This document shows, piece after piece, positions 7,925 to 32,000 of a stretch of DNA of 37,676 nucleotides. Within the stretch, counting starts at the first letter, position 1, and the number at the start of each line of letters is the position of its first letter. The notes under the pieces were generated by a model. It searched no databases and was not told the DNA's origin. It saw only the letters and a program-made list of their open reading frames with translations. The DNA comes from Anaerolineae bacterium (GTDB lineage: Bacteria > Chloroflexota > Anaerolineae > B4-G1 > SLSP01). The stretch lies in contig JALXBP010000135.1 in the NCBI GenBank assembly GCA_026991395.1, positions 1 to 37,676 on the forward strand. The letters are read 5' to 3'. Made by a program: the position numbers and the translations under genes.

Positions 7925-7931
7925 TCTGTGG

Positions 7932-10163: not shown

Positions 10164-10174
10164 AAGCGACTCCT

Positions 10175-11974
10175 TTATGACTGGACTTGGGCGGCGTGGC
10201 GACCGCCGTTGTTGATGCCTTCGCCGATGAGCGGCTCGCGCGGGCTGGCGACGACGCCCGTTTCCACGCCGATGATGCGGCGCAGAACGGCGATGGTCGC
10301 CGCGTAGGTCGGGTCCATGCCGTAGTAGGAGAGGTTGCGCGAGCCGAGGTTCCGCCCCTTGCTCATCGGCGTATCGGAAGCGTAGTGGAGGATGCCAATC
10401 TCGAAGGGGACGGGGTAGAGATTGACCAGTTCGTTGGTCGGGTAGCGGCGCGGGCGGATGAACTCGTAGAGCGCCGAAAGGTACGGCCCGGCTTCCATCT
10501 CCACGTCGGTGTAGCCGCGTTCGAGGAAGCCGCGCATATACTCGTCGTTCTGGAGGAAGGTGCCGCGCACCGTCAGCGCCCGCTGATTGTCGAGGACATC
10601 GCCGTAGACGAGGTGCGGGCGGACGTGGGCCGCCTTGAAGACGTTGCCGAAGAGGTAGGTGTTGCGGGAATGCTCATCGTAGACGACGTTGGGGATGAGG
10701 ACATCGCCGATGCGGGCGTTGAGCGTCGCCGCCTTGCCGATGATGTAGGCACCGAGCAACTGCCCCACGTTGACGGCGAGCCGCGTCAGCAGGTGGTAGG
10801 CGGCGAAACCGAGGGGGTAATCGATGTTGAGGATGATCGCCTCGCTGCGGGTCAGGGCCTCCAGCGGCAGGTCGCGCAGCCGGGGGTCTATCGCCTCGCG
10901 GCGCAGCCGTTTCAACTCGATGAGCTGCACCTCCAGATCGAAGGTGTGCTGGCTGGGGATGCGGGTGATGCCGTGTTCGGCCTCCCACTGCGCCCGCGCT
11001 GCCAAGAGATCGCGACCGTCCTCCGTCTGCAGGTACTTCTTCAGCAGGTAGTAGAGGAAGTTGTTGCGATCGCTGGGCGTATCCCCCCGCTGGATGCGCC
11101 GATACTCCTCCTTGATCTGCGGCGGCGCTTGATGACGCAGGTAGTCGAGCAGCCGATCCTCGTGCGCCTGCGCGAAGCCGCTGAGCATATTGACCAGGCT
11201 GTGGGTGTTGCTGGAGACGAAGTAGAGCGGGCGCTCGCGGAGATCGAAGGGGGCCATCTCGCTGACACGGTTCCACCAGCGCTGGGTCGCGCGTCGATAA
11301 TCGATGTGGGAACCGGCGAGGAGCGTAACGCTCATTCGCTTGCGCCTCTGCGCGATTTGCAGGAGAAGCTGCGGAAGCCGCGCCTTCCAGATACGGCGCA
11401 GGCGCTGCCAATCGTCGGGGGAGAGGTGGAGCGTTTCGCGAATCTCCTCTTCCGTCTCGACAGGAATCTCGCCATTGGTCGCCCAGAGTGTCAGCAGTTC
11501 CAGCATCCCCTCCTTGCCGGAAAGGAGCCGGTGCATCTTGTTCCACTCGATCTGGAAGGCGGTGAGCGTGGGCACGAGGTCATCCACATCGGAGATGCTG
11601 GCGATGTAGGCGGCGAGGATGCCTTCCCGCTCGTCGAAGCGCATCCGGCGACGGCGGGCCGGTGCGGCCACCCGCTCCCACGCCTCCACGCCGGGATAGC
11701 CGCGGCGGCGGAAAACCTCCTCGCTCTGGCCGAGAATGACCTTCCTCACCTGCGGGATGCAGGGCGGAAGGCGGAGACTGGCGTAGGTGAAGGCGGACAT
11801 ATCCGGTTCGATGGCCCCGGCGTGGGGATGGAGCGAGGAGTGCATCGCGATGTGCGTCTCCTCCAGCGTGCGGATCTGCACCTCGCTCGTCGTGCGCAGG
11901 AGCGAGTAGATGGTGCGCATATAGAGCGCGATCGCGTCATCGGGTGGACGTGGAATGCTGCGTTTCATCTCCAC
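10175..11974 (-). CDS. Uncharacterised 599-aa protein inside the xanthine dehydrogenase-type operon
   Basis: Long ORF in operon register (7-bp gap upstream, 11-bp gap downstream); GTG at 11974 or ATG at 11968. C-terminal part GKAATLNARIGDVLIPNVVYDEHSR...GYTDVEMEAGPYLSALYEF. Confidence 0.9.
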   Translation of the reverse strand: MEMKRSIPRPPDDAIALYMRTIYSLLRTTSEVQIRTLEETHIAMHSSLHPHAGAIEPDMSAFTYASLRLPPCIPQVRKVILGQSEEVFRRRGYPGVEAWERVAAPARRRRMRFDEREGILAAYIASISDVDDLVPTLTAFQIEWNKMHRLLSGKEGMLELLTLWATNGEIPVETEEEIRETLHLSPDDWQRLRRIWKARLPQLLLQIAQRRKRMSVTLLAGSHIDYRRATQRWWNRVSEMAPFDLRERPLYFVSSNTHSLVNMLSGFAQAHEDRLLDYLRHQAPPQIKEEYRRIQRGDTPSDRNNFLYYLLKKYLQTEDGRDLLAARAQWEAEHGITRIPSQHTFDLEVQLIELKRLRREAIDPRLRDLPLEALTRSEAIILNIDYPLGFAAYHLLTRLAVNVGQLLGAYIIGKAATLNARIGDVLIPNVVYDEHSRNTYLFGNVFKAAHVRPHLVYGDVLDNQRALTVRGTFLQNDEYMRGFLERGYTDVEMEAGPYLSALYEFIRPRRYPTNELVNLYPVPFEIGILHYASDTPMSKGRNLGSRNLSYYGMDPTYAATIAVLRRIIGVETGVVASPREPLIGEGINNGGRHAAQVQS

Positions 11975-11981
11975 CTGGCCC

Positions 11982-13415
11982 CTACACCTCGCCCAGCTTC
12001 GAAGCCGCCTTCTCCACCGCCTTGATGATCTTGTAGTAGCCGGTGCAGCGGCAGAGGTTACCGCTGAGCGCTGTGACGATCTGCTCGCGCGTCGGATGGG
12101 GCCGCTCTTCCAGGAGGTTGGCGGCGCTCATCACGAAGCCGGGGGTGCAGAAGCCGCACTGGACGGCGTCCTCCTCGACGAAGGCTTCCTGCACCGGATG
12201 GAGCGTGCCGCCCTTCGCCAGCCCCTCCACGGTCACAACGTTCGCCCCGTGGGCGCGGGGTGCGGGGACGAGGCAGGAGAGCACCGCCGCCCCGTCGAGC
12301 CAGACGGTACAGGCCCCGCACTCGCCCTCCTCGCAGCCGGGCTTGGCCCCCATCAGGCCGAGGTCGTCGCGCAGCATATGGAGCAGCGTCTTGCCGTTCG
12401 CGCCGCGCACGGTTACGTTCTCGCCGTTGACGACGAACTGGATCGGCTCATCGCCGTCGGTGTGGTGGGCGATCGTCGGGCCGGAGAGGGTCGGACGGAT
12501 GCGGTGCCCGCCCTGGAGCAGCACCATCGCCTCCGGTTGGGGCAGGTCGCGGCGGGGATGGCCTTCGCGGATGGCCTCCAGCCCCTTGCGCACCAGCGCC
12601 TCCACCTCCTGCTTGCGCAGCCAGGCGGAGCCGCGCACATCGTCGATGGGACGGGCCTCCTCGGCGGCCAGTGCGGCGGCCTGTGCGATGATCTCGTCGG
12701 TGAGCGGCTGCCCCTTCAAGGCCCCCTCGGCCTTCGGGGCGCGGATGATGGTCGGGGCGACGCTGCCCATCGTGATGCGGGCCGCCTTGACCGTCGTCCC
12801 CTCCATCGTCAGCACCATCGCCACGTTGGTGACGGCGATGGCGAGCACCTTGCGCAGTCCCATCTTCAGGTAGGTGCCGGCCTCGTCGGCGGTCAGCGGG
12901 GGGATGGCGATGTCGGTGAGGATTTCGTCCTCCTCCATCACCGTGCGCCGCACGCCGAGGTAGAAGTCGGCCAGCGGGATGGTGCGCTCGCCGCGCACGC
13001 TGCGCAGCGTCAGGCGGGCATCGAGCGCCATCAGCGCGGTGATGGTGTCGTTGGCGGGCGAGGCGGTGATCAGGTTCCCGGCGACGGTGCCCCGATTGCG
13101 CAACGCGGGTGCGCCCACGCCCCAGCAGGCCTGGGCCAGCGGCAGCGCCTTCTCCTGGATGAGCGGGGAGGCGGCGACGGCGGCGTGCGTGGCCATCGGC
13201 CCGATGTGGATGAGGCCGTCCTCTCCCAGCGCGATGCGATCCAGCCCGCGCACGCGGGTGATGTCGATGAGGACGGGGACCTTGCGCCCGTGGCGCAGCT
13301 CAAGCACCAGGTCGGTGCCTCCGGCAACGATGCGGGCCTTGCCGCGGTTTTCCGCCAGCAGGCGCAGCCCATCCTCCAGTGATGTAACGGTGTAGTAGGT
13401 TTGCCATAACGCCAT
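11982..13415 (-). CDS. Xanthine dehydrogenase family fusion: FAD-binding (CoxM-like) + [2Fe-2S] (CoxS-like)
   Basis: N-term KARIVAGGTDLVLELRHG...NRGTVAGNLITASPANDT; C-term CEEGECGACTVWLDG...VQCGFCTPGFVMSAANLL...GNLCRCTGYYKII; SD AAGGAG. Confidence 0.94.
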   Translation of the reverse strand: MALWQTYYTVTSLEDGLRLLAENRGKARIVAGGTDLVLELRHGRKVPVLIDITRVRGLDRIALGEDGLIHIGPMATHAAVAASPLIQEKALPLAQACWGVGAPALRNRGTVAGNLITASPANDTITALMALDARLTLRSVRGERTIPLADFYLGVRRTVMEEDEILTDIAIPPLTADEAGTYLKMGLRKVLAIAVTNVAMVLTMEGTTVKAARITMGSVAPTIIRAPKAEGALKGQPLTDEIIAQAAALAAEEARPIDDVRGSAWLRKQEVEALVRKGLEAIREGHPRRDLPQPEAMVLLQGGHRIRPTLSGPTIAHHTDGDEPIQFVVNGENVTVRGANGKTLLHMLRDDLGLMGAKPGCEEGECGACTVWLDGAAVLSCLVPAPRAHGANVVTVEGLAKGGTLHPVQEAFVEEDAVQCGFCTPGFVMSAANLLEERPHPTREQIVTALSGNLCRCTGYYKIIKAVEKAASKLGEV

Positions 13416-14965: not shown

Positions 14966-17900
14966 TCACCGTCCTGCGGTAAAGACAAGCGGGCCGAAAG
15001 CATTGTTGTCCTCATTGCTTTCCCGCACCGCGGCCCAGGGAGCAGGTGCCCCCCAGGAATCCACGAAAGCCCACACGCTATGGCTCCCCGCCTGCCATTG
15101 CTCCGGCCATCGACTATCGTCGGCGCGATAGTAAGCATCACCGAAGGTAAGCGTCAGCTCCTCTCCGGCGTCCAGGCGGGGAATGAACCACGAAAGTCCA
15201 TAGACAGAAACGGATTCCCACGCCGTATTGACCACAGGCGGGCGGCTTGGGTCCAGATAGAGATCGACCCAGAAATTCGTAGCCGTCGCCACCCCGTCAT
15301 TGCTCACCGTTACCGAGAGCCGCTGCGGATCATCAGCATCGATGACGAGATTCCGCACACGGAGATCGGGCATATATCCGAAGTCGCGCGTGAGCACAGG
15401 CAGATAGAGGCTCTTGACGACACGTCGCACGTTCAGACGGAAGGGACCTGCGGCCTCACCGCTGACGACGGCATGGCTGAAGTCATCGAAGAAAGTCCCC
15501 CAACTGTTCTCGATAGCCGTCATCTTCCCTACGTAGCGAGTCCCCTCGGTGACAGGGATGCTCTCCTCCTCCCACGCCCCTTCAGGCTCGACGTAGAGCA
15601 CGATCTCGAACTGCCGCCAAGCAGCCGGAGCCAGGTCTCCGAGCGACCACGTCAATTCACGTCCCTCTAAAGAACTCCACGGCGGGATTGCCTCCGTCGC
15701 CGTAACGCCTTCCGGCAGTGTCAGGGTAACCGTGACATCGCGGGCGATAGCATCCCCCGCATTGTACGCCGTAACGCGAATCAGCACCTCCGAAGGGCCG
15801 TAGGTAGGGATGTAGCATTCCCCATCAACGGCCAGGACATCCGCCGTAGCCGACTGCGGGGATTCACCCCACCCCCCTTCACAGAAGTAATCCACCCAGA
15901 TGGCCGCTCCATGAGCTTCCACCGTAACCTTGTTCCCCGATGCCGCCCATTGCACCCCGAAGGGGTCGGTATAGCGAATGCCCGGCCCCTCATTGACGAT
16001 GTTGGGGCCATGATGGGCACGTGAGATCGTCGCCAGGGCGGCGACGGCCTGCTGCGGGGCCAGGGTCCTCGCCTCCGATGGCAGTTCGAAGGTAACCACC
16101 CCATTCGCATCCTCGACGAACGGAATGGTCGGCACCATCGTCGTGAAAAGCGCCGCAAGCGTATCGGAATCAGGATGGGCCGCATCCACCTCCGCCGCTT
16201 GCTGAAGAGCCTGCAGCAGCGCCGCATCGGTGATCCAGGTGGCAGAACGCAGGTGTACATTGGAGGGAAGGCGATCGGTGAGCACGAGACCGGTCGCAGG
16301 GGCAGAGAGATAGGCGGGGACCTCGTCTCCTTCCCCTACCATCGCCAGATGGAGCGGGGGAACGTCATAGCCGTGAGGAAGGTTATCGGCAGCCACCGTA
16401 ATCGGAATCTCGATGATCCGATTCCAAAGCTCGGACGGCAGATCGTCGCCGACCTCTAACTCGAAATACCAGAGGCTACGCCATCCATCGGGGACCGTCT
16501 CTCGATTGAGGAAGGCCAACTCGGCCCAGATCGGCTCCGGTGCAGTCGCAGGATCGGTGTAGAGCAGGGTCGCCGTCATCCCTCGAGGAAGCTGAAGCGA
16601 AGGCACAAGCCCCGTGAGCGTTATGCCGGTGTTGTTTTCCAGCGCAAGCCGAACGAGCGTCCGCTCGCCTGCGTGCAGGTAACTATGGAAAAGCTGCTTC
16701 TCCCGATGGCCGCCGACATACACCGACCACACCAGATCACCATAACCCCATGCCTTGAAGAAGGGATCGTAACGCGATATCCACTGACGCGGCTCATAGG
16801 GATCGCGCATCGTGTAGATAAAGGCCAGCGTATCGCTGTACACACTGACCGCCGTCGGCCCTCCCCATTTCTCGACCTCCCCATCGCTGCGATAGCCCTC
16901 CACAACGTGGGTATGTCCATCGTAGATCTCATACCGATTCGGCCCCGCAACTACCTGATGATAGATCAGCTGCGGACCGTCATCGAGCTTGAACTGCCCT
17001 TCGCGATTATCCTCCTCGTTCTCGACGGTCGCCGTCAAGACAAAGCTGTTACTCGTGCCCAACGGGATACGCAGATGAAAGAGCAGCTCATCGCGGTCAG
17101 GATAGGTGGTCACACTGACCAAACTCGCGTAACCCGGCGTCAGAGGGCTGTAAGCACGGCTCCAGCTTCCCTGCCAGGGAGCAAGACGAATACCCAGCCC
17201 GCGGAAGATGGGGAAGAGCAGCAGGTTCTCGTCCGGATCGATCGTCCTGCCCTCGCCGTTGGGATCGGCGCTGTAAGTCTTGGCAAGGTAACGCACGATG
17301 ATGCTCTCCGGCCACCGCGTGGGGAGATCATTGACCCGCCGCTCGCAGAAACCATCGCCATCCATATCGACCCAGATGCCGAAGGTTACGTTGACCCCGG
17401 CATGCTGCTCGAAATCGGGCGAGCAGGTCGCACAGCTATCCCAATCCCACACATCGTAGAAGGTAGCCCGCAAAGGCATCGTGTGCGTCCGCGACCAAAC
17501 ATCCCGGTACGTCAGGCGCGAGGGAGAAGGGGCAGCAGGCGCATAGGGCGTCGCCGCCTCCAGGTACTCCCGGAAGGGGACGGCCTCCGTCCCCGCCGCC
17601 ACGTAGATCGAACCGGCCTGGTTGGGAAGAACGACAGTCCCCTCGCGGGGCGTGCCCTCGAAGACCACCTCCCGCCCCAACAGTTCACGGGAGTGGACGC
17701 CATAACGTATGAGCGGCTCGTCATACCAGTAGGGCGGCATCTCGCCCAAGTGCCACACCAGCGGCCAGCAGGGCAGAAGGAGCACGTGATCATCGGTTAC
17801 GGTGAGAACATCGGTGTAGGTCGGCGGAATGGTGATGAAGGAGCCATAATCGGTCATCGGCGCAGTGGCACGCAGGGGCAATTCCGTATGGATACCGTAG

Positions 17901-19720
17901 GTGCTCGTGAAACGGCACCAGTGGCGCTCGTCAGGCGGCAAAGCCCGCCAATCCTCAATGGTGATCGTCTGCGTCGGTGCAACCGCCCCGTCCCACAGCG
18001 GATAGTTGCCCGACTGCCAATAGTTGCCCGACTGCCAAAGGTAGGGTTCATTACGCACCCAGATCGTCTCACCATCGTTGGTGGAAAGGATGACGTGCTG
18101 ATCGGCGTAATCCACGATGGGGGCGATGAGATAGACCCAGTCGGTCAAGACCGGCGAGAGGGCCGCCGTCTCCTCCTTGTTCTCCAGCGGCATAGCGAGG
18201 TCGAGGTAGAGGCCCTCCTGCGGGATGCGATAATGACGATCAGGTTCGAGGTCGCGATCGCCGACCAGCCGCGCCGCCATGCGTGAAGTCAGGCGGAAGG
18301 GCTTGTGGCGCGTCAGCACGGGACGACCCGCCTCCTCACGGTAGAAGACTCCCTGCGCGAAGACCGCCTCACCGGAGGCGAGCGTCTCCGGCTCCGTCTC
18401 CGCCCGGAAATCGAGCGTGATGCCGACGTGAGCGGAAAGCGTCCCTATCACCCAGACAAGCTGCGTCGAGCCGTCGGGTGCGGTGAAGATGACCGTCGGC
18501 GAAGGGACAACGGTCGTTGTGAGCAGACGATAGCCGGGGGCAATCGTTTCCGTGACCACCGCATTGTGCAGCGGGGCATCCCAGAGGTTGCGGAGATGCA
18601 ACGTTGCACTGACGGGCACCACCTCATAGGCGGGGAACTCGTGGGAGGGATAGACCGGGTTGAATGTCTGCACCGCATCGCCGTAAAAATCGACGTGGCT
18701 GCTCAAAGCCATCATCAGAGCATCGAGGAAGATGGGGGCCTCATCGCGATGACGTTCATCGGTAGGATGACCAAAGACGGCCACGACCTCGCCGCGACCA
18801 TATGGCTGCCGGATGATGGCAGGCAGCGCCGTCCCGTCCCTGGTATTGACAAAGGTTGCGATGACCTCGGTCGATTCATCGGGGTAGAAGAGAGGATCGT
18901 CCAGGACGTACAATGTCGTCGTGACCCAGCTATAGGCCATCGGCGAGTCCGCCTGCTCGATGCGCAGACGCCCGCGGTTCTCGAAGGCATCCTCGGGCTG
19001 CAGGTAGTCGAGGATCGACTGCGTGGTATCCACGCTCCCCTCGGGCAGCAGTCCCGCCCGCTCGGCCAGGCCCGCCGCCGTCCCCTGTACATAGAGCGTC
19101 CCCCCTTCTTCCACGAAACGGCGCAGGGCCTCCAGCCCACCCGCCTCCTCCAGGCGGGCTATGACCTCCTCCTGAGCATCGAGGCGGTAGGCCGGGAGGA
19201 TCAACAGCGCATCATTCTCCAGGCCGGAGACGACGGTCGTCTCCGTGAGCACCTCGTAAGGCAACGCGCCGCCGAGATAGCCGTCGAGGAGTTGTCGTAT
19301 CGAGGCAAGCTCCCAGCCTGCCACCACCTCCCCTTCCTCATACGGGACCCGCACACTCGAACGGAAGACGGCTACGCCGTCCCCGTAGAGCGCATAGGCC
19401 CGCGTCGGCACCTCCCCCACCGTCGAGGTCAGGCTCGTACACCGGGCACAACTCCACGGCTCCCCCTCGGGGACGATGAGATCGCCGGGGAGGGCCTCCG
19501 TCGTCGTCACGGCAGACCGCCAAAGCCGCCCACCTTCCGCCAGGTGGCGGAATGCACTTTGGTAAGCCGCCTGTCGATCGAGCTGATTGCGCCCCAGAGG
19601 AACCAGCGTGCCGCCCACGCCCGCACGCATCGGCGTCGCCTGCAGGCTCCGATGGATGCCCAGCGCAGCCACGATCAACAACACCGCTACAGCTACCAAC
19701 CGAGTGATCCTCTGCATCAT
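14966..19720 (-). CDS. Large secreted multidomain protein (DUF11-like repeats, CARDB-like C-terminus)
   Basis: Start MMQRITRLVAVAVLLIVAALGI (signal peptide) at 19720 preceded by AAAGGGGG; DUF11-like segments (TLTLPEGVTATEAIPPW...LTWSLGDLAP); CARDB-like PDLRVRNLVIDADDPQRLSVTVSNDGVATATNFWVDLYLD...VRESNEDNNAF. Confidence 0.88.
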   Translation of the reverse strand: MMQRITRLVAVAVLLIVAALGIHRSLQATPMRAGVGGTLVPLGRNQLDRQAAYQSAFRHLAEGGRLWRSAVTTTEALPGDLIVPEGEPWSCARCTSLTSTVGEVPTRAYALYGDGVAVFRSSVRVPYEEGEVVAGWELASIRQLLDGYLGGALPYEVLTETTVVSGLENDALLILPAYRLDAQEEVIARLEEAGGLEALRRFVEEGGTLYVQGTAAGLAERAGLLPEGSVDTTQSILDYLQPEDAFENRGRLRIEQADSPMAYSWVTTTLYVLDDPLFYPDESTEVIATFVNTRDGTALPAIIRQPYGRGEVVAVFGHPTDERHRDEAPIFLDALMMALSSHVDFYGDAVQTFNPVYPSHEFPAYEVVPVSATLHLRNLWDAPLHNAVVTETIAPGYRLLTTTVVPSPTVIFTAPDGSTQLVWVIGTLSAHVGITLDFRAETEPETLASGEAVFAQGVFYREEAGRPVLTRHKPFRLTSRMAARLVGDRDLEPDRHYRIPQEGLYLDLAMPLENKEETAALSPVLTDWVYLIAPIVDYADQHVILSTNDGETIWVRNEPYLWQSGNYWQSGNYPLWDGAVAPTQTITIEDWRALPPDERHWCRFTSTYGIHTELPLRATAPMTDYGSFITIPPTYTDVLTVTDDHVLLLPCWPLVWHLGEMPPYWYDEPLIRYGVHSRELLGREVVFEGTPREGTVVLPNQAGSIYVAAGTEAVPFREYLEAATPYAPAAPSPSRLTYRDVWSRTHTMPLRATFYDVWDWDSCATCSPDFEQHAGVNVTFGIWVDMDGDGFCERRVNDLPTRWPESIIVRYLAKTYSADPNGEGRTIDPDENLLLFPIFRGLGIRLAPWQGSWSRAYSPLTPGYASLVSVTTYPDRDELLFHLRIPLGTSNSFVLTATVENEEDNREGQFKLDDGPQLIYHQVVAGPNRYEIYDGHTHVVEGYRSDGEVEKWGGPTAVSVYSDTLAFIYTMRDPYEPRQWISRYDPFFKAWGYGDLVWSVYVGGHREKQLFHSYLHAGERTLVRLALENNTGITLTGLVPSLQLPRGMTATLLYTDPATAPEPIWAELAFLNRETVPDGWRSLWYFELEVGDDLPSELWNRIIEIPITVAADNLPHGYDVPPLHLAMVGEGDEVPAYLSAPATGLVLTDRLPSNVHLRSATWITDAALLQALQQAAEVDAAHPDSDTLAALFTTMVPTIPFVEDANGVVTFELPSEARTLAPQQAVAALATISRAHHGPNIVNEGPGIRYTDPFGVQWAASGNKVTVEAHGAAIWVDYFCEGGWGESPQSATADVLAVDGECYIPTYGPSEVLIRVTAYNAGDAIARDVTVTLTLPEGVTATEAIPPWSSLEGRELTWSLGDLAPAAWRQFEIVLYVEPEGAWEEESIPVTEGTRYVGKMTAIENSWGTFFDDFSHAVVSGEAAGPFRLNVRRVVKSLYLPVLTRDFGYMPDLRVRNLVIDADDPQRLSVTVSNDGVATATNFWVDLYLDPSRPPVVNTAWESVSVYGLSWFIPRLDAGEELTLTFGDAYYRADDSRWPEQWQAGSHSVWAFVDSWGAPAPWAAVRESNEDNNAFGPLVFTAGR
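18003..18038. repeat. 18-bp perfect tandem duplication inside the large secreted CDS
   Basis: TAGTTGCCCGACTGCCAA twice in tandem; encodes WQSGNYWQSGNY. Confidence 0.9.
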
Positions 19721-19838
19721 TCGCCCCCTTTGCTCTATGGCAGTCCGGCGCTCTCGCCGTCGATGAACGCACCTCGGCCATCGGCAAGCCGCCCAAGGCC
19801 CGAGCCGTCGTCCCGGCCCGCCGGTAGCGAATCGCAAA

Positions 19839-19898
19839 TTCCCTTTGAGGGAAACGGCCTTAGCCTTCAAGGCTACGGGCATTTCCCTTGAAGGCTAA
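19839..19898. repeat. Compound palindromic intergenic element
   Basis: Perfect 13-bp inverted repeat TTAGCCTTCAAGG (19860-19872) / CCTTGAAGGCTAA (19886-19898) plus TTCCCT-ttg-AGGGAA (19839-19853). Confidence 0.8.
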
Positions 19899-20090: not shown

Positions 20091-21122
20091 TTAATTTTGC
20101 ACCAGTTCCGTAGCCGGTGACCACCGAAGCGGTATGGATTTTTGCATCGCATCGAGCGATTTGATACACAAGGCTCTGTTTTCTTGACAAAGAAAAGTCA
20201 ATTGCCCTTTTCCCGTCCACAGAAAGTTGTAATATACTGGGGTATCAATCCAGTCTATTTCGTCTGTCGCTAAACCGATCAATCTGATGCCATCACGCCT
20301 TTCACCGGTTCCACAAGACACAGCAACCGCCAGCCATCGAGCGTCAGGGGACAATCGTAGGTTGTGGATTTCTTGAGAGATGGTCCCGCCACAGACGGGT
20401 ATCTCGCGTTCTTTCTTCTCCCGGACCTCAATTTCTATGACATAGTCAGATGTCAGTTGGGCAGAGCTGTATGCAGTGGCGATCAATCTATCGCCCCCGC
20501 GCCATATCACATCGGAAAACATTCTCTCCGGCGTAGCCGAGAGCAACAGATCTGCATTGCCCGTGGCGAGATTGACCAAGTACAACCCACTCTGAGGCGA
20601 GTTTAACATACGGACAACGGCCAAATGGTCAGTGGAGGGAGACCAGGCGCATAACGTTCCCCCTTCAATGAATTGTATTATCCTGCCGTCTTGAGAGGAA
20701 AGGATGTAGATCCCGTTTTTATTCTCTGATGTGGTACTTGCTGCTGCTGGGATAGCAATATATTGTCCATCGCGGGATATCCTGGTCTCGTAAATGGCGG
20801 GCGATGTGAATGTGTTCAGACGAGTAGCATTGTCACGATCCCCAAGGTTCATTTTGTATAACTCGCATTGTTCTTGATCGCACAAATAAAAGACCAGCCA
20901 CGATCTGTCCGGCGAGAGCCTGACGCCTTGTAGAGTACCTGCCATCTTCCCTTCGTCCGTTTGTATTCCCGCGGCAAGATCAACCTCTACAATAACGGTT
21001 TCCCCATCAGCATAAGCTGTATAGTACACCACGGGATGCTCGACATCACCGGCACATCCTTGGACAAAGGACAGCACTAGAAAGAGTAATATCACGAGCA
21101 GCATTTTAAACTCATTTTTCAT
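20091..21122 (-). CDS. Predicted lipoprotein with TolB/WD40-like beta-propeller repeats; candidate immunity protein
   Basis: MKNEFKMLLVILLFLVLSFVQGC lipobox; repeated LSPDRSWLVFYLCD, SRDGQYIAIPA, LSPDARWLAVAVS; SD AGGAGG before ATG 21122. Confidence 0.85.
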   Translation of the reverse strand: MKNEFKMLLVILLFLVLSFVQGCAGDVEHPVVYYTAYADGETVIVEVDLAAGIQTDEGKMAGTLQGVRLSPDRSWLVFYLCDQEQCELYKMNLGDRDNATRLNTFTSPAIYETRISRDGQYIAIPAAASTTSENKNGIYILSSQDGRIIQFIEGGTLCAWSPSTDHLAVVRMLNSPQSGLYLVNLATGNADLLLSATPERMFSDVIWRGGDRLIATAYSSAQLTSDYVIEIEVREKKEREIPVCGGTISQEIHNLRLSPDARWLAVAVSCGTGERRDGIRLIGLATDEIDWIDTPVYYNFLWTGKGQLTFLCQENRALCIKSLDAMQKSIPLRWSPATELVQN

Positions 21123-21135
21123 TTGCAACCTCCTG

Positions 21136-24100
21136 CTACGGACCATACCACTTATTAGATAGATAAAGGTTGGTTCCTTCTACTGACCAATGCTTGAAGT
21201 CGCTATCAGATTTTGCTTTATCCATCATCCGTTGGTAGATATCGGAACCATGCCCAAAGTATAAAGCTTCAGGAAATTGGTCCGGCTCACATCCGTTGAG
21301 AATGCCTCGTGCAATGTCCAATGCCTCAAACCAACTCTGCCTGTCCGGGCTTTCCCAGCCTAGTCCTGCTTGCCCCTTCTTGTGAACTAGGTAGTCCTCT
21401 GTTACGTCTTTCGTCTTCCACTCCTCGTATCCTTGGAATTGATGGGGTTGATCTAATACTCCTTGGATTGTATTCGGGAAATCACTAGAATCACGGCGGT
21501 GGACAATGACATATCCTATTGCCCTCATAGCCCTTCTCCTAGCATCTCGATTGCTGTTTTTTCCTCTCTGTTCGGCCCATATAGCCTTAGCCAGCATGAT
21601 CTCTTGAGGAGAATACTGCCTCTGGCGTTCTCTGGCATAGGCATTCGCTTCCTTCCAATAAGATGGCCAGTCGATTTTCCCCTGATTCAAAACATATCCA
21701 GGGTCACCATCTCCCGAGTAATATCCGCATCTGTCTCCATTGTCAGGCGTCGGCGTTTTTTCCTCTCCATATCCTTGTGCTCCATCACCCGATTGGTTCG
21801 GCGATGGAGTTGATGAGGATGAAGATGAGGATGTGGATGTGGAAGTGGAACCAAGTCCCGGCGTCGGTTCTATCGAAGTTGGTGTCTCTTCAGGCGTGTA
21901 ATTGTTGCCACCATTATCACACCCAGCAAGAACGGCCATTATCAAAATTACCATCGTTAGAGATACGATCAGTAATATACGAGAACGCTTCCTCCTCTTT
22001 CCTGTAACAACCACTGTCATTTGTAACAACGGTAATAGCCCCATCAGCAAGCCGATAGGATCAGTCAGCGGTATTGGGCGGTTTTGGTGCCTGGTTGACC
22101 AATACGCGCCTCGCACCGGATCATAGTATCCCCAAGGCGACGAATAAAGCCCTGCCTCTACATCATACCCCAGACCAACATAAGCAAAGAACTGCAACTC
22201 CCAATTGGCTACTAACGGGAAGCCATACTCATCATACAAGTATGGCCTAACCAGGTCGCCGTTTTCGTCCGCCAAGCCTGCCACACTATCGGAGCCATCA
22301 TATTCGTACCAGTAGCGGTCGCCGGCAAAGCCGGTGGCCGGGTTGGGCAGCCGCTCCATCTCGAAGGGGCGGCGCAGGCCGGTCAGCGGCGAGGGAGCCA
22401 GGTAGTAGTAGGTCTCCGTTACCGTGCCGCTCACCGCCAACTGCGCCCCGATGATGTCGAGGCCGTCGTAGAGGTAGGTGATGACCTGCGTGAGCGTGAT
22501 GCCGCCGGGGTAGGCGACCGCTTTGCGGACGCGCCGCCCGTAGCCGTCGTAGGTGTAGGTGGCGACCATCGTCACGGTGATGGCCGCGCTGTCGCTCATC
22601 GTCTTGGTCACGCCCACCAAACGATCCTCGCGGTCATAGAGGTAATCGGTGAGCAAGGTCGTGCCGTTGGTCAAGATTTCGGTCTCGCGCACCCGGTCGC
22701 CGTTCCCGTTGTAGTCCAGCGCGGTCTCGCGGTCCGGCTCCTGGATGCGGATCAACTGGTTGGCCGCGTTGTAGGTGTAAGCCACCGCCTCCGGGCGCGG
22801 GGCGACGGGCAGTTCGGGCAGGCCGGGGTCGGGGGCCAGTACCGTGCCCGTCTTGGTCAGCCGGTTGCCCACGGCGTCGAAGGTGTAGGCGGTATCGCTC
22901 GCCGGGTCCTCGGTGGCGGCGTTGACCAACCGGTCCAGAGCGTCATATTGGTAAGTGTGGGTGATGACGACGGGCGTCGGGCTGCCGTCGAAGGCGGCGC
23001 GGGTCTCGATCACTTGGGTGCGGTTGCCCACCTTGTCCATCGCATAGGCGTAGGCACTTTGGGGATGGGCCGCGCCCAGTTTGCGGTGGTCAATCCCGGT
23101 CAGCCGGCCTGCGTCGTCGTAGGTGTAGGTGGAGGCGACGTCGTTGGGGCGCAAGATGCGCGTCACCTGGCCCAGCGGGTTGTACTCGAAGGTGCTGGCG
23201 TCGCCGTGGGGGTCGGTGAAGGTGGTGAGCCAGTCGTTGGCGTTGTAGGCGTAGGCGACGGCGTAGCCGTTGGGGTAGGTCAGGCCGGTCAGGTTGCCCA
23301 GCGCGTCGTAGGTGCGGGTGATGGTGCGCCCCAGCCAGTCGGTGGTCGTCGTGCGGCGGCCCAGGGCGTCATAGGTGTAGGTCGTGCAGCCCAGGCCGTC
23401 GCACATCTGGAGTTCGTTCCCCTCCAGGTCGTAGGTGAAGGTGACGGGGTGCAGGGTCGGCGGGGTGGAGCCGTAGCGGACGGCGGTCAGGCGGTCGTTG
23501 CTGTCGTACTCGTAGTAAGTGGCCCGCCACATCGCGTCCACGCGGCGGATCAGCCGTCCCGCCGCGTCGTAGGCGTAGGACCATTGCTTCCCCAGGGGAT
23601 TGACCTCGCGCTTGAGTTGATTGAGGAAATTGTACGCAAAAGTAGTCGCGCTCCCGTTGGCGTCGGTGATGACCGTCAGGTTGCCCACCTCGTCGTAACC
23701 GTAGCGGGTCGTGCCGCTGAGAGGGTCGGTGACGGCGATGAGGCGGCCCAGGGCATCGTAGTCGTACCCCGTCGTGTGGCCGTTGGCGTCGGTGACGGCG
23801 ATGACGCGCCCCAGGGCGTCGCGGGCGTACTCGGTGGCATTGCCCAGCGGGTCGGTCGTTTTGAGCAGGCGGCCCAGCGGGTCGTAGTCGTAGGTGGTGG
23901 CCTTACCCTGCGCGTTGACCTGCCGCACCAGGTTGTAGACGGCGTCATACTCCATCGTCGTGGTGTAGCCCAGCGCGTCGGTGAACTGCACCGGCAGGCC
24001 GGCCAGGTTGTAGGTCGTGGCGACGGTGTGGCCGTTGGCGTCGGTGACGGCCACCGGGGTGTCCTCGGCGTCGTAGGTGTAACGGGTGACGCCCCCCAGA

Positions 24101-27100
24101 GGATCGGTGATGGTTACAGCGTTGTCGTTCTCGTCGTAGGTGAAGGTGGTGGCAAAGCCGTTGGGCGAGGTGATGACCACCGTATTGCCCACGGCGTCAT
24201 AGGCGTACTGGGTCGTGGGCCGCTGGCCGTCGGGGAGGATGGGCTGCATCACGGCGGTCAGCCGGTCCAAGGCATCATAGGCGTAGTCGGTGCGGTGGCC
24301 CAGCGGGTCCACCTGAGCGGTGCGGTTGCCCACGGCGTCGTACTCGTAGCGGGTGACGTTGCCCAGCGGGTCCTTGACCGCCACCAGGCGGCCCAGGGCG
24401 TCGTAGGTGTAGTCGGTCACCTCGCCGCGCGGGCCGATGATGCGCACCAGTTGATCCTCGGCGTTGTAGCAGTACTCGGTGCGGTGGCCTGCCGCGTCAA
24501 TGAGGTACTTGAGCCGGTTGGCGGCGTCGTAGATCATCCGCGTGCGGTAGCCCAGGGGGTCTATCGTGGCGACGACGTTGCCGTTGGCGTCGTACTCGTA
24601 GCGGGTGACGGCGCCGGTGGGCTCGGTGACGGCGAGCAGCCGTCCGGCGTCGTCGTACTCGTAGCGGGTAACGTGCCCGGCGGCGCCGGTCATCGCCACG
24701 CGACGGTAGAGTTGGTCATAGGTGTAGTGCGTCCAGTGACCCAGAGGATCGCGCTCGCCGGTCAGTTTGAGGTTGGCGTCGTATTGGTAGAGCCGCTCTC
24801 CGCCCCGTCGGTCAACGGAGCGCACCAGCAGGTCGTTCAGGTCGTACTCGAAGGTAGAGACGTGCCCCTTGGGGTCGGTGATGCGGGTGATGTTACCCCG
24901 GTCGTCATACTCGAAGGTGACGGTGTGGCCGTTGGCGTCGGTGTAGGTGGTCTCCCGCCCGGCGGCGTCGTAGGTGGAGCGGGACTCGGTGCCGTCGGGG
25001 TAGATGGTGCGCACCAAGTTGCCATAGTCATCGTACTCGTAACGGGTGGCATGCCCCAGGGCGTCGGTGATGACGGTCGGCTGGCCCCAGGCGTTGTACG
25101 CGGCCTGCGTCTCCGAGCCGTCCGGGGCGACGGCGCGGGTCAGGTTGCCGTGTTCGTCGTACTCGTAGTGCCAGGTGTGGCCCAGCGCGTCGGTCATCGA
25201 AATGACCTGATTGTGCGTGTCATAAGTCCAGCGGGTGACGTCGCTGGTGTAAGTCGCCCCGGCGGGGATGGGGTCGTAGCGGGCGGTGACGTTGCCCCGC
25301 TCGTCGTACTCGTAGCGGGTGACGTTCCCGTTGGCGTCGGTGCGGCTGGTGAGGTTGTAGTCGGCGTCGTACTCGTTGTGGACGGTGTTGCCCGCCGCGT
25401 CCTGCTCCTGCGTCACGCGGTTCAGTTCGTCCCAGTGATAGACCTCCTGGTGGCCCAGGTTGTCGGTGAAGGTGGTGATGCGGTTGGCCGGGTCGTAGGC
25501 GAAATAACTGTGCGTGCCGCTGGCGTCAATCTGCTCGACCACGCGGTCCCGGTCGTCATAGGTGTTCTGGAGGAAAAGGAACCCCTCGCCGTCCCACTCT
25601 TTGGTCATCCGGTGACGGCTGTCGTACTGGAAGCGGCGCAACGTGTCGGAAGCGAGAGCGATGCGGGTCAGGTTGCCGTCGCCGTCGTACTCGAAGGTGT
25701 AGGTGCGGCCATCCCACAAGGCCATGCGCGTGATGCGGCTGTTCTCGTCGCTCGTCAGAGTGATCGTGCGGCCGGCGTCGTCGTGAATGGCGGTCAGCGG
25801 CGGGCGGGGAACATCCTCGCCGTCCTGCCAGTTGTCCTGGCCGCTGAGGTCGTAATCGAAGTGCAGCCCGTTGCCCCGGCGGTCGCGCTGCTCGGTCAGG
25901 ATGCCGAAACCGCCCACCGTCCGGCTGAAGACCAGCGTCACCTCATCCGGCGTAGTCCACTCCCAGCCCTGGTCGGTGAGGGTCAGGCGGTCGTAGACAC
26001 CGGCCGGGGCGTCGTAGCCGCTGCCGTTCCAGGTGTAATGATAAGTGCGCCCGTCGGCCAGGGCGATGCTCACCGAGTCGTCGCTGTACTGCTGAGCGCG
26101 GGCATTGTAGGGGAAGGACCAGCCGTAGCCGAAGAGGTCGCTGCGCCAGTCCTGGGAGTTGTAGGTCAGCGTCAGGTCGAAGTCCAGCCCGCCGCGGCCG
26201 GGGATGCGGGCCAGGCGCACCTGGACGACGTGGTTGCCGGTCGAGAAACTGACCGGGTCGCCGCCGTAACGCTGATAATTCTGATAGCCCAAGTCGCGCA
26301 GTTTACGCAGAACCTCCGGCGACGGAGGGTCGGGGATGGGAGGCGGTTGGTTGTCCTCGCCGCAGGTCAGGCCCAGTTCGGTCAGGCGGTTGGCGATGGC
26401 CGCGTAGGTGGCGTCCACGACGAGGTCAAAGTGGGTGTGGATAACCGGCCAGTCATAGTTGTGATCTAAGAAGAGGGTCTCGATGTGGGCATAGTGAGGG
26501 GCGACGTTGTAAAACTCTGCATACGGCAATAGGGGATGTGAACCACCCCAGCGATGAGGACGGCTCGTGTAAGTAGTGATAGCGCTAAAGAACTTGTTGA
26601 CGAGGGCAACATCGTTAGAGCGGTGATTATGGTCACGAGCCCAAGCCCATAGTCCACCGTCGTTCCTCACGCCCCACGGATGTCCACGAAGGGCGTTAAA
26701 GGCCAAAGTAACAAACATATCGGCGCCAAAATTACGCGCCCGCCGAGCACGGGAAGAACGAGGGACATACCCCTGCCTTTGCGAGGCATTACGGGTAATG
26801 AGAATATCCACGTGGCAGTTGTTGTCTATGAATCGCTGGCGGACATCTCTGGCCAAGCGGTAAGCGTAAGGGCCTTCCCACACCGTCCCCACACCGGGCC
26901 AATAGGCCCGTCCAACGTTATCGTCAGGGTCCAAGGCCAGTTTCATATTCTGAGCCGCTGCCATCGACAGAGAAGCCTCAGAAAGCTGGGGACGGGAGGC
27001 CAGCGGGGCCATCGGGACGAATTGCCCGACCTCCTCGTTCTCCGCCACGATCATCTGTTGTTCACCATAGTTCGCACCGGTCGGGAGCCAATCCTCGCTC

Positions 27101-27684
27101 TCACCGCGGCGGGTGTACAGGAACAGCAGGCTGGTATCCAGTCCATCCACGTCCTCCGGGGTGTAGTAGACGTAGATGTGCCAGGTAGGGGTTACAATAG
27201 AGACATCCGGTGGTCCGGGGATGATGGTCACCTGGTAGGGGAACTTGTCGATCGGCGTGCCGTCGGCGGCCTCCGCCGTGATCTCGAAGGCCGGCCCGGC
27301 CACGCCCAGGTTATCCGGCGGCAGGGAAGGTGGCGCGATCTCCCGGTAACGAATAGTCACCGTCTGGGTGATGGCCTCAGGGTCGAAAACGATCCGCACT
27401 TTGCCATCGGAGGAGCCGATCTCCCCGCCGGTACCAGGGTTCAGAGTAATCTCTGTGGATGCGGGAGGAACGTATCCTCGGACGATGACCGGCAGATAAC
27501 AGATGAAAGGAGGCCCAGATGTTTGTTCCCTTCCGCGAGGCCGGTAGACATTCACTTGAGATTGTGGTTCGGCCCTTCCCGCCTCTACCGGTTGAAGCCA
27601 CAGAAAACCTGTACTGGTCGCCAACATCGTGACGATGACGATGGCAGATACCACCCTGTTGAGCCATGTCTTCCACGCCTTCAT
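21136..27684 (-). CDS. RHS/YD-repeat protein with N-terminal ZU5-like and amidase-like regions and C-terminal SleB-like hydrolase domain
   Basis: Signal peptide MKAWKTWLNRVVSAIVIVTMLATSTGF; dozens of YEYDxxGNL repeats; RHS core end YSSPWGYYDPVRGAYWSTRHQNRPIPLTDPIGL; C-term LAKAIWAEQRGK...IVHRRDSSDFPNTIQGVLDQPHQF; SD GGAGGAGG. Confidence 0.92.
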   Translation of the reverse strand: MKAWKTWLNRVVSAIVIVTMLATSTGFLWLQPVEAGRAEPQSQVNVYRPRGREQTSGPPFICYLPVIVRGYVPPASTEITLNPGTGGEIGSSDGKVRIVFDPEAITQTVTIRYREIAPPSLPPDNLGVAGPAFEITAEAADGTPIDKFPYQVTIIPGPPDVSIVTPTWHIYVYYTPEDVDGLDTSLLFLYTRRGESEDWLPTGANYGEQQMIVAENEEVGQFVPMAPLASRPQLSEASLSMAAAQNMKLALDPDDNVGRAYWPGVGTVWEGPYAYRLARDVRQRFIDNNCHVDILITRNASQRQGYVPRSSRARRARNFGADMFVTLAFNALRGHPWGVRNDGGLWAWARDHNHRSNDVALVNKFFSAITTYTSRPHRWGGSHPLLPYAEFYNVAPHYAHIETLFLDHNYDWPVIHTHFDLVVDATYAAIANRLTELGLTCGEDNQPPPIPDPPSPEVLRKLRDLGYQNYQRYGGDPVSFSTGNHVVQVRLARIPGRGGLDFDLTLTYNSQDWRSDLFGYGWSFPYNARAQQYSDDSVSIALADGRTYHYTWNGSGYDAPAGVYDRLTLTDQGWEWTTPDEVTLVFSRTVGGFGILTEQRDRRGNGLHFDYDLSGQDNWQDGEDVPRPPLTAIHDDAGRTITLTSDENSRITRMALWDGRTYTFEYDGDGNLTRIALASDTLRRFQYDSRHRMTKEWDGEGFLFLQNTYDDRDRVVEQIDASGTHSYFAYDPANRITTFTDNLGHQEVYHWDELNRVTQEQDAAGNTVHNEYDADYNLTSRTDANGNVTRYEYDERGNVTARYDPIPAGATYTSDVTRWTYDTHNQVISMTDALGHTWHYEYDEHGNLTRAVAPDGSETQAAYNAWGQPTVITDALGHATRYEYDDYGNLVRTIYPDGTESRSTYDAAGRETTYTDANGHTVTFEYDDRGNITRITDPKGHVSTFEYDLNDLLVRSVDRRGGERLYQYDANLKLTGERDPLGHWTHYTYDQLYRRVAMTGAAGHVTRYEYDDAGRLLAVTEPTGAVTRYEYDANGNVVATIDPLGYRTRMIYDAANRLKYLIDAAGHRTEYCYNAEDQLVRIIGPRGEVTDYTYDALGRLVAVKDPLGNVTRYEYDAVGNRTAQVDPLGHRTDYAYDALDRLTAVMQPILPDGQRPTTQYAYDAVGNTVVITSPNGFATTFTYDENDNAVTITDPLGGVTRYTYDAEDTPVAVTDANGHTVATTYNLAGLPVQFTDALGYTTTMEYDAVYNLVRQVNAQGKATTYDYDPLGRLLKTTDPLGNATEYARDALGRVIAVTDANGHTTGYDYDALGRLIAVTDPLSGTTRYGYDEVGNLTVITDANGSATTFAYNFLNQLKREVNPLGKQWSYAYDAAGRLIRRVDAMWRATYYEYDSNDRLTAVRYGSTPPTLHPVTFTYDLEGNELQMCDGLGCTTYTYDALGRRTTTTDWLGRTITRTYDALGNLTGLTYPNGYAVAYAYNANDWLTTFTDPHGDASTFEYNPLGQVTRILRPNDVASTYTYDDAGRLTGIDHRKLGAAHPQSAYAYAMDKVGNRTQVIETRAAFDGSPTPVVITHTYQYDALDRLVNAATEDPASDTAYTFDAVGNRLTKTGTVLAPDPGLPELPVAPRPEAVAYTYNAANQLIRIQEPDRETALDYNGNGDRVRETEILTNGTTLLTDYLYDREDRLVGVTKTMSDSAAITVTMVATYTYDGYGRRVRKAVAYPGGITLTQVITYLYDGLDIIGAQLAVSGTVTETYYYLAPSPLTGLRRPFEMERLPNPATGFAGDRYWYEYDGSDSVAGLADENGDLVRPYLYDEYGFPLVANWELQFFAYVGLGYDVEAGLYSSPWGYYDPVRGAYWSTRHQNRPIPLTDPIGLLMGLLPLLQMTVVVTGKRRKRSRILLIVSLTMVILIMAVLAGCDNGGNNYTPEETPTSIEPTPGLGSTSTSTSSSSSSSTPSPNQSGDGAQGYGEEKTPTPDNGDRCGYYSGDGDPGYVLNQGKIDWPSYWKEANAYARERQRQYSPQEIMLAKAIWAEQRGKNSNRDARRRAMRAIGYVIVHRRDSSDFPNTIQGVLDQPHQFQGYEEWKTKDVTEDYLVHKKGQAGLGWESPDRQSWFEALDIARGILNGCEPDQFPEALYFGHGSDIYQRMMDKAKSDSDFKHWSVEGTNLYLSNKWYGP
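22300..25700 (-). repeat. Tandem YD (RHS) repeats, period about 63 bp
   Basis: Recurrent coding of TYDxxGNLTxxTDxxGHxTxYEYD units. Confidence 0.9.
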
Positions 27685-27925: not shown

Positions 27926-28849
27926 GTGAACCGTCGCCGCGCATTTGGACGCTTGGTTGCTATCTTACGGAAAGAGCACCTGATGGAGGATGGGAGGCCT
28001 TGGTCGCAACAGTATCTGGGGCAACGCTCCGGCTTGGGCACCGTCATCATCGGGAAGATCGAGAGAGGGGAGCGACAGTGTCTGAGCAAGGATGTCCTGA
28101 TTCGCCTGATGGATGCCCTGGAATTGACCAGCAGCGAGCGTCGAGAGTTCTTGCTGGCGGCCACAGGGGTCGAAAAAGCCTATCTTTCGCGCGGCGATCA
28201 GAGCAAAGAGGAAATTCTCGACAGGTTGATGGCGCTGGCAGGCCACATCCACACACCGGCTTACATCGTCGATAACTACTGCGATCTCTTGTCCACAAAC
28301 CGGGCGGCTCTCGAGATATTGGCTCTCGACGTCGAGGGACTGCGTCTGTCGGACGTCCGGCAGCATCCGTTCGGTTTGAATATGTTGTATTTTGTCGTTT
28401 CCCCTGTAGCGGTCCGCCACTTCCAGGCGCTGATGCAAGACTACTGGATCAACTACGTGCGCCAGAATATGTTGCTCTTCCGCACATGCACGCTGCGTTA
28501 TCGGGCAGACCCTTATTTTCGGCAACTGCTCCGAGGCTTGCGTCGCCACCGATATTTCAGGCGCTATTGGCACGATGTCCTGTTCGAAGAGAGAGACCAC
28601 TTTATGAACAACGAGATTCTCCATCTCGTGCATCCACAATGGGGGCCGCTGACCTTCTTCTCGACGACGATCACAGCGCTCAGCGTCGAAGGTGAACTCT
28701 ATCTATGCACATACGTGCCCACCGACCACCACACATCAGAGGTCTTCTTCACCGTCACACAGGGTGGCGGAGCAGAAATGCTCCCTCTGAAAACAGGCCG
28801 ACAGGCTGAGGCCTGCTACAACTGCAGGCCTGCAGGGTTTAGAAGCTAA
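27926..28849 (+). CDS. XRE-family HTH regulator with MmyB-like ligand-binding region
   Basis: GTG start; HTH WSQQYLGQRSGLGTVIIGKIERGERQCLSKDVLIRLMDAL; then TPAYIVDNYCDLLSTNRAALEIL typical of MmyB-type regulators. Confidence 0.88.
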   Translation: MNRRRAFGRLVAILRKEHLMEDGRPWSQQYLGQRSGLGTVIIGKIERGERQCLSKDVLIRLMDALELTSSERREFLLAATGVEKAYLSRGDQSKEEILDRLMALAGHIHTPAYIVDNYCDLLSTNRAALEILALDVEGLRLSDVRQHPFGLNMLYFVVSPVAVRHFQALMQDYWINYVRQNMLLFRTCTLRYRADPYFRQLLRGLRRHRYFRRYWHDVLFEERDHFMNNEILHLVHPQWGPLTFFSTTITALSVEGELYLCTYVPTDHHTSEVFFTVTQGGGAEMLPLKTGRQAEACYNCRPAGFRS

Positions 28850-28967: not shown

Positions 28968-29015
28968 TTGGATAAGGCGATCCTATCGCCTATCCCATTG
29001 CAGAAGGAGGGGAAA

Positions 29016-32000
29016 ATGATGCGAAAAGAGAGTTGGCGTTTGGGTCTTTCCCTCTCACTGGCACTACTTCTCTTCATCGGCATGACGCTCCTCCTCGGGA
29101 GCCGATGGGGACCAAGCACAAGCGTCGCACAGGCCCAAAGCGACAGCACCATCCGCTACGTGGCCCCCGGCGGGGACTGTGGCTCGGTGTCGCCCTGCTA
29201 TAGCAGCGTACAGGCAGCGGTGAACGCAGCCAGCAGCGGCGACGAGATCCGCATCGCCACCGGCACCTACAACGAGAACGCGACCATTGACAAGAGCCTT
29301 ACCCTGCGAGGCGGCTACACCACCACCGACTGGAGCGTCCCCAACCCCATCTCCTACCCCACCGTGCTCAACGGCGGCGGGGCGGGGCGGGTGATCGCCG
29401 CCACCACCTCGGGTATCGACCTCACCATCGAGAACCTGGAGATCACCAACGGGACAGGCGGCATCCAAATCTGCGGCCAATACGACGACGCCTGCAGCAT
29501 CAACGCCACCATCCGCAACTGCTACATCCACGACAACGATGCCAGCAGCGCTGACCCCGATGAGGGCGGCGGCATCTACGCCAAACTCAACGAGGGCTAC
29601 ACCATCCGCATCGAGAAGTGCCGCATCGTCAACAACACCGCCGACGGGACATACGGCGGGGGCGGCGTCTTCGCCTACTACTACCCTCGCGTCATCCTCG
29701 TCGACAACATCATCACCGGCAACACCGCCAGCGGCGGCAGTCAGGCCTACGGTGGCGGTGCGTACGTGGGAGGCACCGCCTGCACGGTGACCGGCAACGT
29801 CGTGGCCCAGAACGCCGGAAGCGGCGGCCTCTACGTAAGCTGTAACGCTCCCATCGTCAGCGATAACCGGATATGGGGGAACAGTTCCGGGCCGTATGAG
29901 ACCGCCGGAGGACTGTACGTCGAGATTCCCACCTCCGGCAGCGGCCTGGTGAGCGGCAACGCCATCACCAACAACACCCATGCCTGTAGCTCCTGTTCCT
30001 ATGCCGCCGGTGGCCTGACGACGAGGGGGGAACTCATCGTGCGGAGCAACATCATCACCGGCAACACCGGTGCCCACGCCGTCTATGCCGGGGGCAACGT
30101 CGTCTTCGAAAACAACCTCGTCGCCGACAACCAGCCCGGCGACGGCCACGACGCCGTGCGGCTGAATCCGGACACCAACTCCAACTGCGGCACCGACGAC
30201 GCCCGCACCTACCGTTTCGTCCACAACACGGTGGCCCGCAACGGCAACGCCACCGCTGTGGAAATTCCGGCTCCGCCCAACACCAACTGCCCTGCCACCG
30301 CCTACATCACCAACACCATCGTCTACAGCCACGCCCTGGGCGTGGAGGCCATCTCCAACAGCATCGCCTACCTGTACCACGACCTCCTGAGCAACACGAC
30401 CAACGTCTCGGGCAATGTAACGCCGGGAGCGGGAATGTACTACACCGAGCCTCTCTTCCTGGCCGACGGCTACCACATCGCCGACGACTCCCCGGCCAAG
30501 GATGCCGGCACCGGCAGCACTTTCGACTACACCGACATCGACGGGCAAGCTCGCCTGATGGGACTGGCTACCGACATCGGGGTGGACGAGGCCCCCTACA
30601 CCGCCACCGTCTCCCTGACCAAGACCCGCCAAGGCAACGGCATCGCCCAGACTGGGAAGCCCATCACCTATGTGCTCACCATCTCCAACGCCGAGACGTC
30701 CGTCTGGCGGCCCGACGTGCGGGTGGTGGACGTCATCACCTCGCCCTACCCGCTGGCGGGCGTGCAGGGCATCGGCGGCAACGCCAACATCGCCTGCCAG
30801 GCAGGGGGCAACGTGGTGACCTGCACCTACCAGAACGTGCCCACCGGCACCACCTACGCCGCTACCGTGGTGATCACACCGGGGACGCCCATCCAGCAGA
30901 ACACGCCGGGCTTCGAATCCCCCGACAACCTGAACATCGCCATCCCCGACAACGGCTGTGGCAGCAACAGTTACGCCGAGCACACCATCGCCGTGAACGG
31001 GTCCGGCACCATCGTGGACGTGGATGTGTTCATCAAGAACATCGCTCACACTTATGATGGAGACCTGAGGATCTACGTGGAGGGGCCGGACGGCACCGAG
31101 GTGGAACTTTCCACCGGCAACGGCAGCAGCGGCGACAACTACATCAACACCATCTTCGACGATGAGGCGGCGAATCCCATCACCGCCGGTTCCGCGCCCT
31201 TCACCGGGCGATTCCGGCCCGAAGGCTCGCTGAGCGACTTCGACGGCAAGGACCCCAACGGCAACTGGACGTTGCGGGTCTGCGATGCAGCCGAGTACGA
31301 CACTGGCACCCTCAACGGCTGGGGGCTGACGCTGACGCTGCAATCGCCGCTCACCCAGACGCTCTCCTGGGTGATCACCGACACCGCCTCGCTGGAGGTA
31401 CTCGACGCCTACGACCCGATCATCACCGACAATGTGGCCGGGCCAGTTACGGTTACGGCGGTCTACACCCCGCCCATACCCGACGTCAAGGTGAGCCAGG
31501 TCGCCCCCCGCTTCGCCAAGCCCAACCAGGTCATCACCTACGGCGTACACTGGAGCAACCAGGGCACTATCGACGCCGAGAATGTCGTGCTCACCGACGT
31601 GCTGCCCGCCGAGGTAACCTTCGGGGCCGCCGACGGCAATCCGACCCACAACGGCCGCTACCTGACCTGGACGTTGGGGACGGTGAGCGCCGGAACGAGC
31701 GGGGTCTACCTCATCACCGCCACCACCAACTCCGGCTTGCAGGACGGGACGATCATCACCAACGTGGCGGGGATCACCACCTCGACGGAAGGAGACCCGC
31801 TGCTGAACAACACCTCCGTGGCGACCACCACCATCTACCAACTGGGCGGGGTGAACATCGAATTGCACAAGCAGGCCACGCCGCAAGCCACACCGTATTC
31901 GGGCCAGAGCCTGCCCAACGAGATCGTCTACACGGTAACCGTGGCCAACACCGGCCAGGTGGACGCCAACGTCACGATGGAGGACCCCATCCCGCAGGGG

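Follow-up and report, generated by a model that had tools for sequence, protein, structure and literature searches.

Several described systems share parts of their design with the locus analyzed here. The RHS/YD toxins catalogued in 2012 combine an RHS shell with an exchangeable C-terminal enzyme, a linked downstream gene and a peptidoglycan target, and the catalogue includes RHS toxins with L,D-peptidase tips as well as polymorphic toxins with FlgJ-like tips, whereas its accessible text contains neither a SleB tip nor an internal lipobox (PMC3482391). The same text states that beta-propellers were not found among immunity proteins and names Imm65 as the only lipoprotein immunity protein. WapA of Bacillus subtilis is likewise an RHS-type toxin, delivered from a monoderm cell without an injection machine, but according to the available part of its description it carries a tRNase tip (PMC5566331). 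In the myxobacterial SitA/SitI system, a lipoprotein carries a polymorphic effector domain, its lipobox is followed by a flexible region, and there is a cognate immunity gene; the sections accessible, however, describe SitA as a lipoprotein of the ordinary type that has nuclease tips and is moved by outer-membrane exchange (PMC8546572), whereas the lipobox of our protein is internal and preceded by an RHS shell, and the genome lacks Omp85. Finally, the T6SS effector T6EC3 was shown to be toxic, has a SleB fold, depends on its catalytic Glu and is paired with an exported immunity protein, while an RHS shell and a lipobox are not described in the accessible text (PMC11148199). In the literature available without subscription, we found no description of an RHS protein that joins an internal lipobox to a wall-lytic tip, nor of such RHS proteins in Chloroflexi. 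The initial annotation remarked that a SleB-like payload on an RHS carrier is not a standard architecture; precedents exist in catalogued wall-active RHS tips (PMC3482391) and in a toxic SleB-like T6SS effector (PMC11148199). The RHS protein with its tip/partner pair seems to represent a hitherto undescribed variety within a known class of bacterial weapons, and what is new relative to known RHS effectors is a putative lipoprotein processing step and a putative immunity role for a propeller protein.

The window, that is, the whole stretch of 37,676 nucleotides analyzed, comes from an Anaerolineae bacterium (GCA_026991395.1, contig JALXBP010000135.1, positions 1 to 37,676 of the forward strand). 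Its RHS gene (21136-27684, minus strand) encodes 2182 residues, by which all positions below are numbered, and ends in the C-terminal sequence quoted in the initial annotation. The protein opens with a segment resembling an export signal (residues 1-35; 27580..27684, minus strand), in which KAWKTWLNR is followed by a hydrophobic stretch with a KD mean of at most 1.93. An Amidase_3-like region follows (residues 270-431; 26392..26877, minus strand; Pfam, 18.4 bits, below the cut-off of 27). Active Amidase_3 enzymes hold zinc-binding His residues at positions where this protein reads LDPDDNVG and TLAFN, so that by inspection the motif His appear to have been lost; the region is probably inactive as an enzyme and is perhaps a wall-binding pseudo-enzyme, and a sequence search for a matching structure returned none. 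Beyond it lie DUF6531 (residues 475-550; 26035..26262, minus strand; 50.2 bits, exceeding the Pfam cut-off) and the RHS/YD repeat shell (about residues 555-1865; 22090..26022, minus strand), with 35 RHS_repeat stretches at 568 bits in Pfam and 25 matches to TIGR01643. Direct sequence relatives of the RHS-SleB protein were absent from 24 genomes of the family and from 399 of the phylum; a match in locus L014 was spurious and belonged to a frame of xanthine-dehydrogenase type. An antisense ORF of 1173 amino acids spans the repeats (22948-26469, plus strand) and is most likely a by-product of high-GC repeat code.

The C-terminal tip is a SleB-like domain, yet not SleB itself. Taken alone, the tip (residues 2009-2182; 21139..21660, minus strand) scored 40.2 bits against PF07486 (E 5e-10; Pfam cut-off 27), and the whole protein gave 36.7 bits, with Hydrolase_2 at residues 2051-2147. 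Because this Pfam stretch begins past the Glu at the catalytic position, we checked that residue separately in an alignment of the tip with 34 Hydrolase_2 relatives, which came from viral contigs and a single Clostridia genome. Glu2038 of WAEQRG (codon 21571-21573, minus strand), in the E.RG motif, was aligned and invariant in all 35 sequences, and the tip also contains the domain's second half (EALYF...). Searches of NCBIfam and of PDB sequences gave SleB as the sole sensible match (crystal chains 4f55 and 4fet, E ~0.002), while the score against the spore cortex-lytic SleB equivalog TIGR02869 was 26.6 bits, far from its cut-off of 236.5. The same alignment, for which the viral contigs supplied nothing but Hydrolase_2 relatives, served as input for an AlphaFold model with pLDDT 79.5 and pTM 0.76 and low confidence in loops of the second half. 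Searched against the PDB, this model matched only the SleB catalytic domains 4fet and 4f55 at E < 0.001 (probability 1.00; target TM 0.58-0.65), all other entries having E > 1. The initial annotation had predicted a SleB-like hydrolase at the end of the RHS protein, and this prediction was borne out by the Pfam score, the conserved Glu and the model alike; we infer that the tip would act as a SleB-like lytic transglycosylase on peptidoglycan. Hydrolase_2 is rare in the class, occurring in 4 of 397 genomes.

Between the end of the RHS shell and the tip we found a hairpin of 18 hydrophobic residues, a basic turn and 19 hydrophobic residues, which ends in a lipobox, LAG|C1922. Arm 1 comprises residues 1877-1894 (22003..22056), the turn GKRRKRSR residues 1895-1902 (21979..22002), and arm 2 with the lipobox residues 1903-1922 (21919..21978; KD mean 2.9), followed by a linker rich in Ser, Thr and Pro (residues 1923-2008; 21661..21918; all minus strand). 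The initial annotation had overlooked this hairpin, as well as the propeller lipoprotein gene discussed below. It had placed the linker directly after DPIGL, where the linker does exist but the lipobox hairpin intervenes, and it had compared DPIGL (1875-1879) with a DPxGL-type cleavage motif; relatives carry NPYxP... at this position, which lends that role no support, and DPIGL instead forms the opening of the hydrophobic segment (KD up to 1.89) and is no conserved RHS end motif. By the positive-inside rule, arm 1 would run from outside to inside and arm 2 from inside to outside. Arm 2 matches a lipoprotein signal peptide in order and length, except that the signal is internal (residue 1922 of 2182) and not N-terminal. 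We know of no lipobox hairpin in WapA. The host genome encodes a signal peptidase II (139.6 bits) and, being rated 100% complete without a detectable Omp85, probably belongs to a monoderm.

Among described families, the hairpin resembles the lipo-invert putative C-terminal anchoring domain NF058595, on which we found no paper. Partial matches ran across the hairpins of the window (26.6 bits) and of a second genome, G479, whose tails gave 20.7-28.4 bits, with 20.7-31 bits as the range over all matches and the cut-off of 37 reached in no case, and the family differs in that its name implies anchoring only, with no payload or partner. The source genome also has weak, lower-scoring matches in other places, of which many seem to be plain lipoprotein signals, so that an NF058595 match alone means little. 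A search across the class at E 1e-8 gave no match, and we therefore built an alignment of junctions instead. Using the RHS end plus hairpin as query, we reached G479 and then G529, G561 and G051 of the same class, which yielded 11 junctions in five genomes including that of the window. Every one of the 11 has a hydrophobic arm of ~18 residues, a turn of 6-9 mostly basic residues, a second arm of 18-21 hydrophobic residues and a Cys after small residues, which amounts to a basic n-region, a hydrophobic stretch and a lipobox with its Cys. As the hairpin sequences themselves differ between genomes, the features in common are the plan and the Cys. The arrangement is rare (5 of the 329 genomes sampled in the class), and an additional phylum sample of 330 genomes returned two of the known hairpin genomes and no new full hairpin.

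Behind this hairpin the tips are exchanged. Besides the SleB-like tip of the window, G479 carries a second one, interrupted by a stop (hhalign E 1.5e-5), and two related 3D tips, one with E 0.019; G529 has an SLT tip (22.3 bits against a cut-off of 21.3) and a 3D tip (27.2 against 23.8), and G561 a GH19 tip (26.1 against 25.5), these SLT, 3D and GH19 scores exceeding their Pfam cut-offs only slightly. All Pfam-assigned tips come from families known to cut peptidoglycan or chitin-like glycans, and the remaining tips are Pfam-less domains, including a possible C39-like peptidase. In three tails of G479, identity stays at 91-94% between the RHS end and the lipobox, beyond which their likeness falls to the level of reversed sequences. 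All loci measured show a fall in GC3 at the lipobox; in the window it goes from 0.84-0.93 down to about 0.42-0.46. Judged from the sequences, a conserved carrier with unrelated tips and a GC3 drop is the mark that tip exchange leaves in polymorphic toxins, and an exchangeable C-terminal tip behind a conserved carrier is one of the features of RHS polymorphic toxins.

Several further tips deserve mention. The C39-like cysteine peptidase of G529 (L067 1575-2279, reverse strand of the locus) was picked out by eye from NACGP... and has no Pfam match; an undetermined stretch and a frame change lie between it and its hairpin. Two related G479 tips (L037 3-905 and L038 2-832; 27% identity) have the same hairpin and related partners and no Pfam match; they are a possible wall-active domain of no assigned family. 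Two G479 tips, P0004 and P0008, appeared SleB-like by eye, an assignment to which hhalign (E 0.14) gives no support, and they carry no family assignment here. One G479 locus also holds an array of tips and propeller genes (L037 2403-4215 and 5375-6430), in which two tips have in-frame stops, beside a transposase-like ORF (L037 7037-8785), and this array resembles a reservoir of orphan modules that have decayed.

Directly downstream of the RHS gene, and overlapping its end by 11 bases, lies a gene for a lipoprotein with a TolB-like/PD40 beta-propeller (20091..21146, minus strand), which we regard as a candidate immunity protein. Its start resembles that of a lipoprotein, its matches to TolB/PD40 propellers are weak (TolB model 26.6 bits), and an HMM built from the G479 partners alone recovered it at E 6e-14. 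Its GC content is 0.489, and it shares with the tip a low-GC patch at ~20.0-22.1 kb (0.46-0.52 against ~0.65 around it). A recognizable propeller protein follows 8 of the 10 hairpin tips for which downstream sequence is present, four of these eight having served to build the HMM and all four having Pfam PD40 matches of their own; the other two partners are a protein with weak propeller matches only (L067) and a lipoprotein without a recognized family (L070). By contrast, a propeller follows none of the 15 hairpin-less RHS tails that have an ORF downstream, which come from these and related genomes (Fisher's exact test ~4e-5, with loci from one genome not independent).

Partners also vary with their tips. 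In the 3D/3D pair the tips share 104 bits and the partners 225 bits, and in the two related tips without an assigned family the values are 31 and 95 bits, against 24-73 bits for the other pairs of propeller partners; the closest full-length relative of the window partner is, by a small margin, the partner of the SleB-like tip of G479. Across seven pairs, tip and partner similarity correlated with r 0.93 (Mantel, p 0.005), or with r 0.78 (p 0.024) across eight pairs with L070 included, a result that rests on the two homologous pairs because the rank correlation is weak. Joint duplication, rather than binding, could also cause this co-variation. Going by gene order and sequence comparison, the propeller lipoprotein is probably the immunity protein of the tip.

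Taken together, we consider the locus to encode a polymorphic RHS effector whose wall-cutting tip is lipid-anchored, together with a cognate propeller lipoprotein as its immunity protein, a reading to which we assign a probability of roughly 0.6. The initial annotation had suggested a polymorphic toxin with a peptidoglycan-attacking payload, and the fold, the catalytic Glu, the GC drop at the tip, the exchange of tips and the cognate-looking downstream gene all speak for it. The main rival is a role outside warfare, in which the RHS protein displays wall-remodeling enzymes on the producer surface while the propeller lipoprotein serves to regulate or dock the enzyme. Such a role would fit the fact that every Pfam-assigned tip belongs to a wall-lytic family, that the enzyme would adjoin the producer's own wall, and that a look for a delivery apparatus, which was not systematic, met none. 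However, the exchange of tips on a 91-94% identical carrier, the arrays of orphan tips, the change in composition at the junction and the tracking of tip by partner form the pattern of polymorphic toxins and not of housekeeping enzymes, and we therefore hold this role to be unlikely, although it deserves to be taken seriously. A counter-point to the effector reading itself is that PD40-repeat propellers are common and that one fold serving several unrelated tips is unusual for immunity.

Two further explanations concern the hairpin. It may be a mere membrane anchor that is never cut or lipidated, its Cys being incidental: an internal lipoprotein signal behind an exported domain of nearly 1900 residues would be unusual, and NF058595, whose score stays below cut-off, is described solely as a putative C-terminal anchoring domain. 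Yet the Cys follows small residues in all 11 junctions despite variable arms, arm 2 has the length and order of a lipoprotein signal, and the host possesses Lsp, so that we regard a simple anchor as rather improbable. We give hardly any credence to the idea that a separate SleB lipoprotein gene was fused to, or starts within, the RHS frame, even if residues 1889 onward resemble a lipoprotein precursor (Met, KRRKRSR, hydrophobic arm, LAGC) and in-frame ATG codons occur at 22044 and 22020. The continuous arrangement recurs in five genomes, and neither an accidental fusion nor an internal start is likely: the junctions of G529 and G051 lack an ATG between YYDP at the RHS end and the basic turn, and we found none of the in-frame starts to be preceded by a Shine-Dalgarno-like motif.

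For the polymorphic effector with a lipid-anchored tip, we propose the following course of events. Sec would export the RHS shell, and the hairpin at its end would dip into the membrane, its basic turn remaining on the inner side. Arm 2 would then act as a complete internal lipoprotein signal, at which signal peptidase II would cut before Cys1922, followed by lipidation of this residue. Cleavage would separate the RHS shell, held in the membrane via arm 1, from a lipid-anchored tip that consists of the lipidated Cys, the flexible linker and the SleB-like lytic transglycosylase. In contact or after transfer, the tip would cut the peptidoglycan of neighbors and might kill them, while the propeller lipoprotein on the same membrane face would block the enzyme and protect the producer. 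Delivery to the neighbor is the least clear step and could occur by contact, by shed membrane or by later release. The more specific proposal, that signal peptidase II releases RHS effectors into a membrane-held shell and a lipid-anchored exchangeable hydrolase, with beta-propeller lipoproteins as an immunity family, is one we advance tentatively, at somewhat less than even odds. If true, it would add a processing and anchoring route for RHS effectors in which an internal lipoprotein signal replaces autoproteolysis, and a common fold, the PD40/TolB-like propeller, would join the immunity proteins, a group for which a large catalogue stated explicitly that beta-propellers were not found. It would also provide a concrete model of contact-dependent antagonism for a bacterial class whose weapons have hardly been studied, with the exchangeable tip/partner pairs as a set open to testing.

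Elsewhere in the window, a cluster at 6438-13415 (minus strand) contains glutamine synthetase, a molybdenum enzyme of xanthine-dehydrogenase type and DUF6909 (744.8 bits; function unknown). PADLOC returned no matches. Surface-type proteins of very large size, which contain DUF11, CARDB and P_proprotein domains, flank the RHS locus (14966-19882, minus strand, and 28968-34451, plus strand), and a gene for an MmyB-like transcription regulator (27926-28849, plus strand) lies divergent from the RHS gene.
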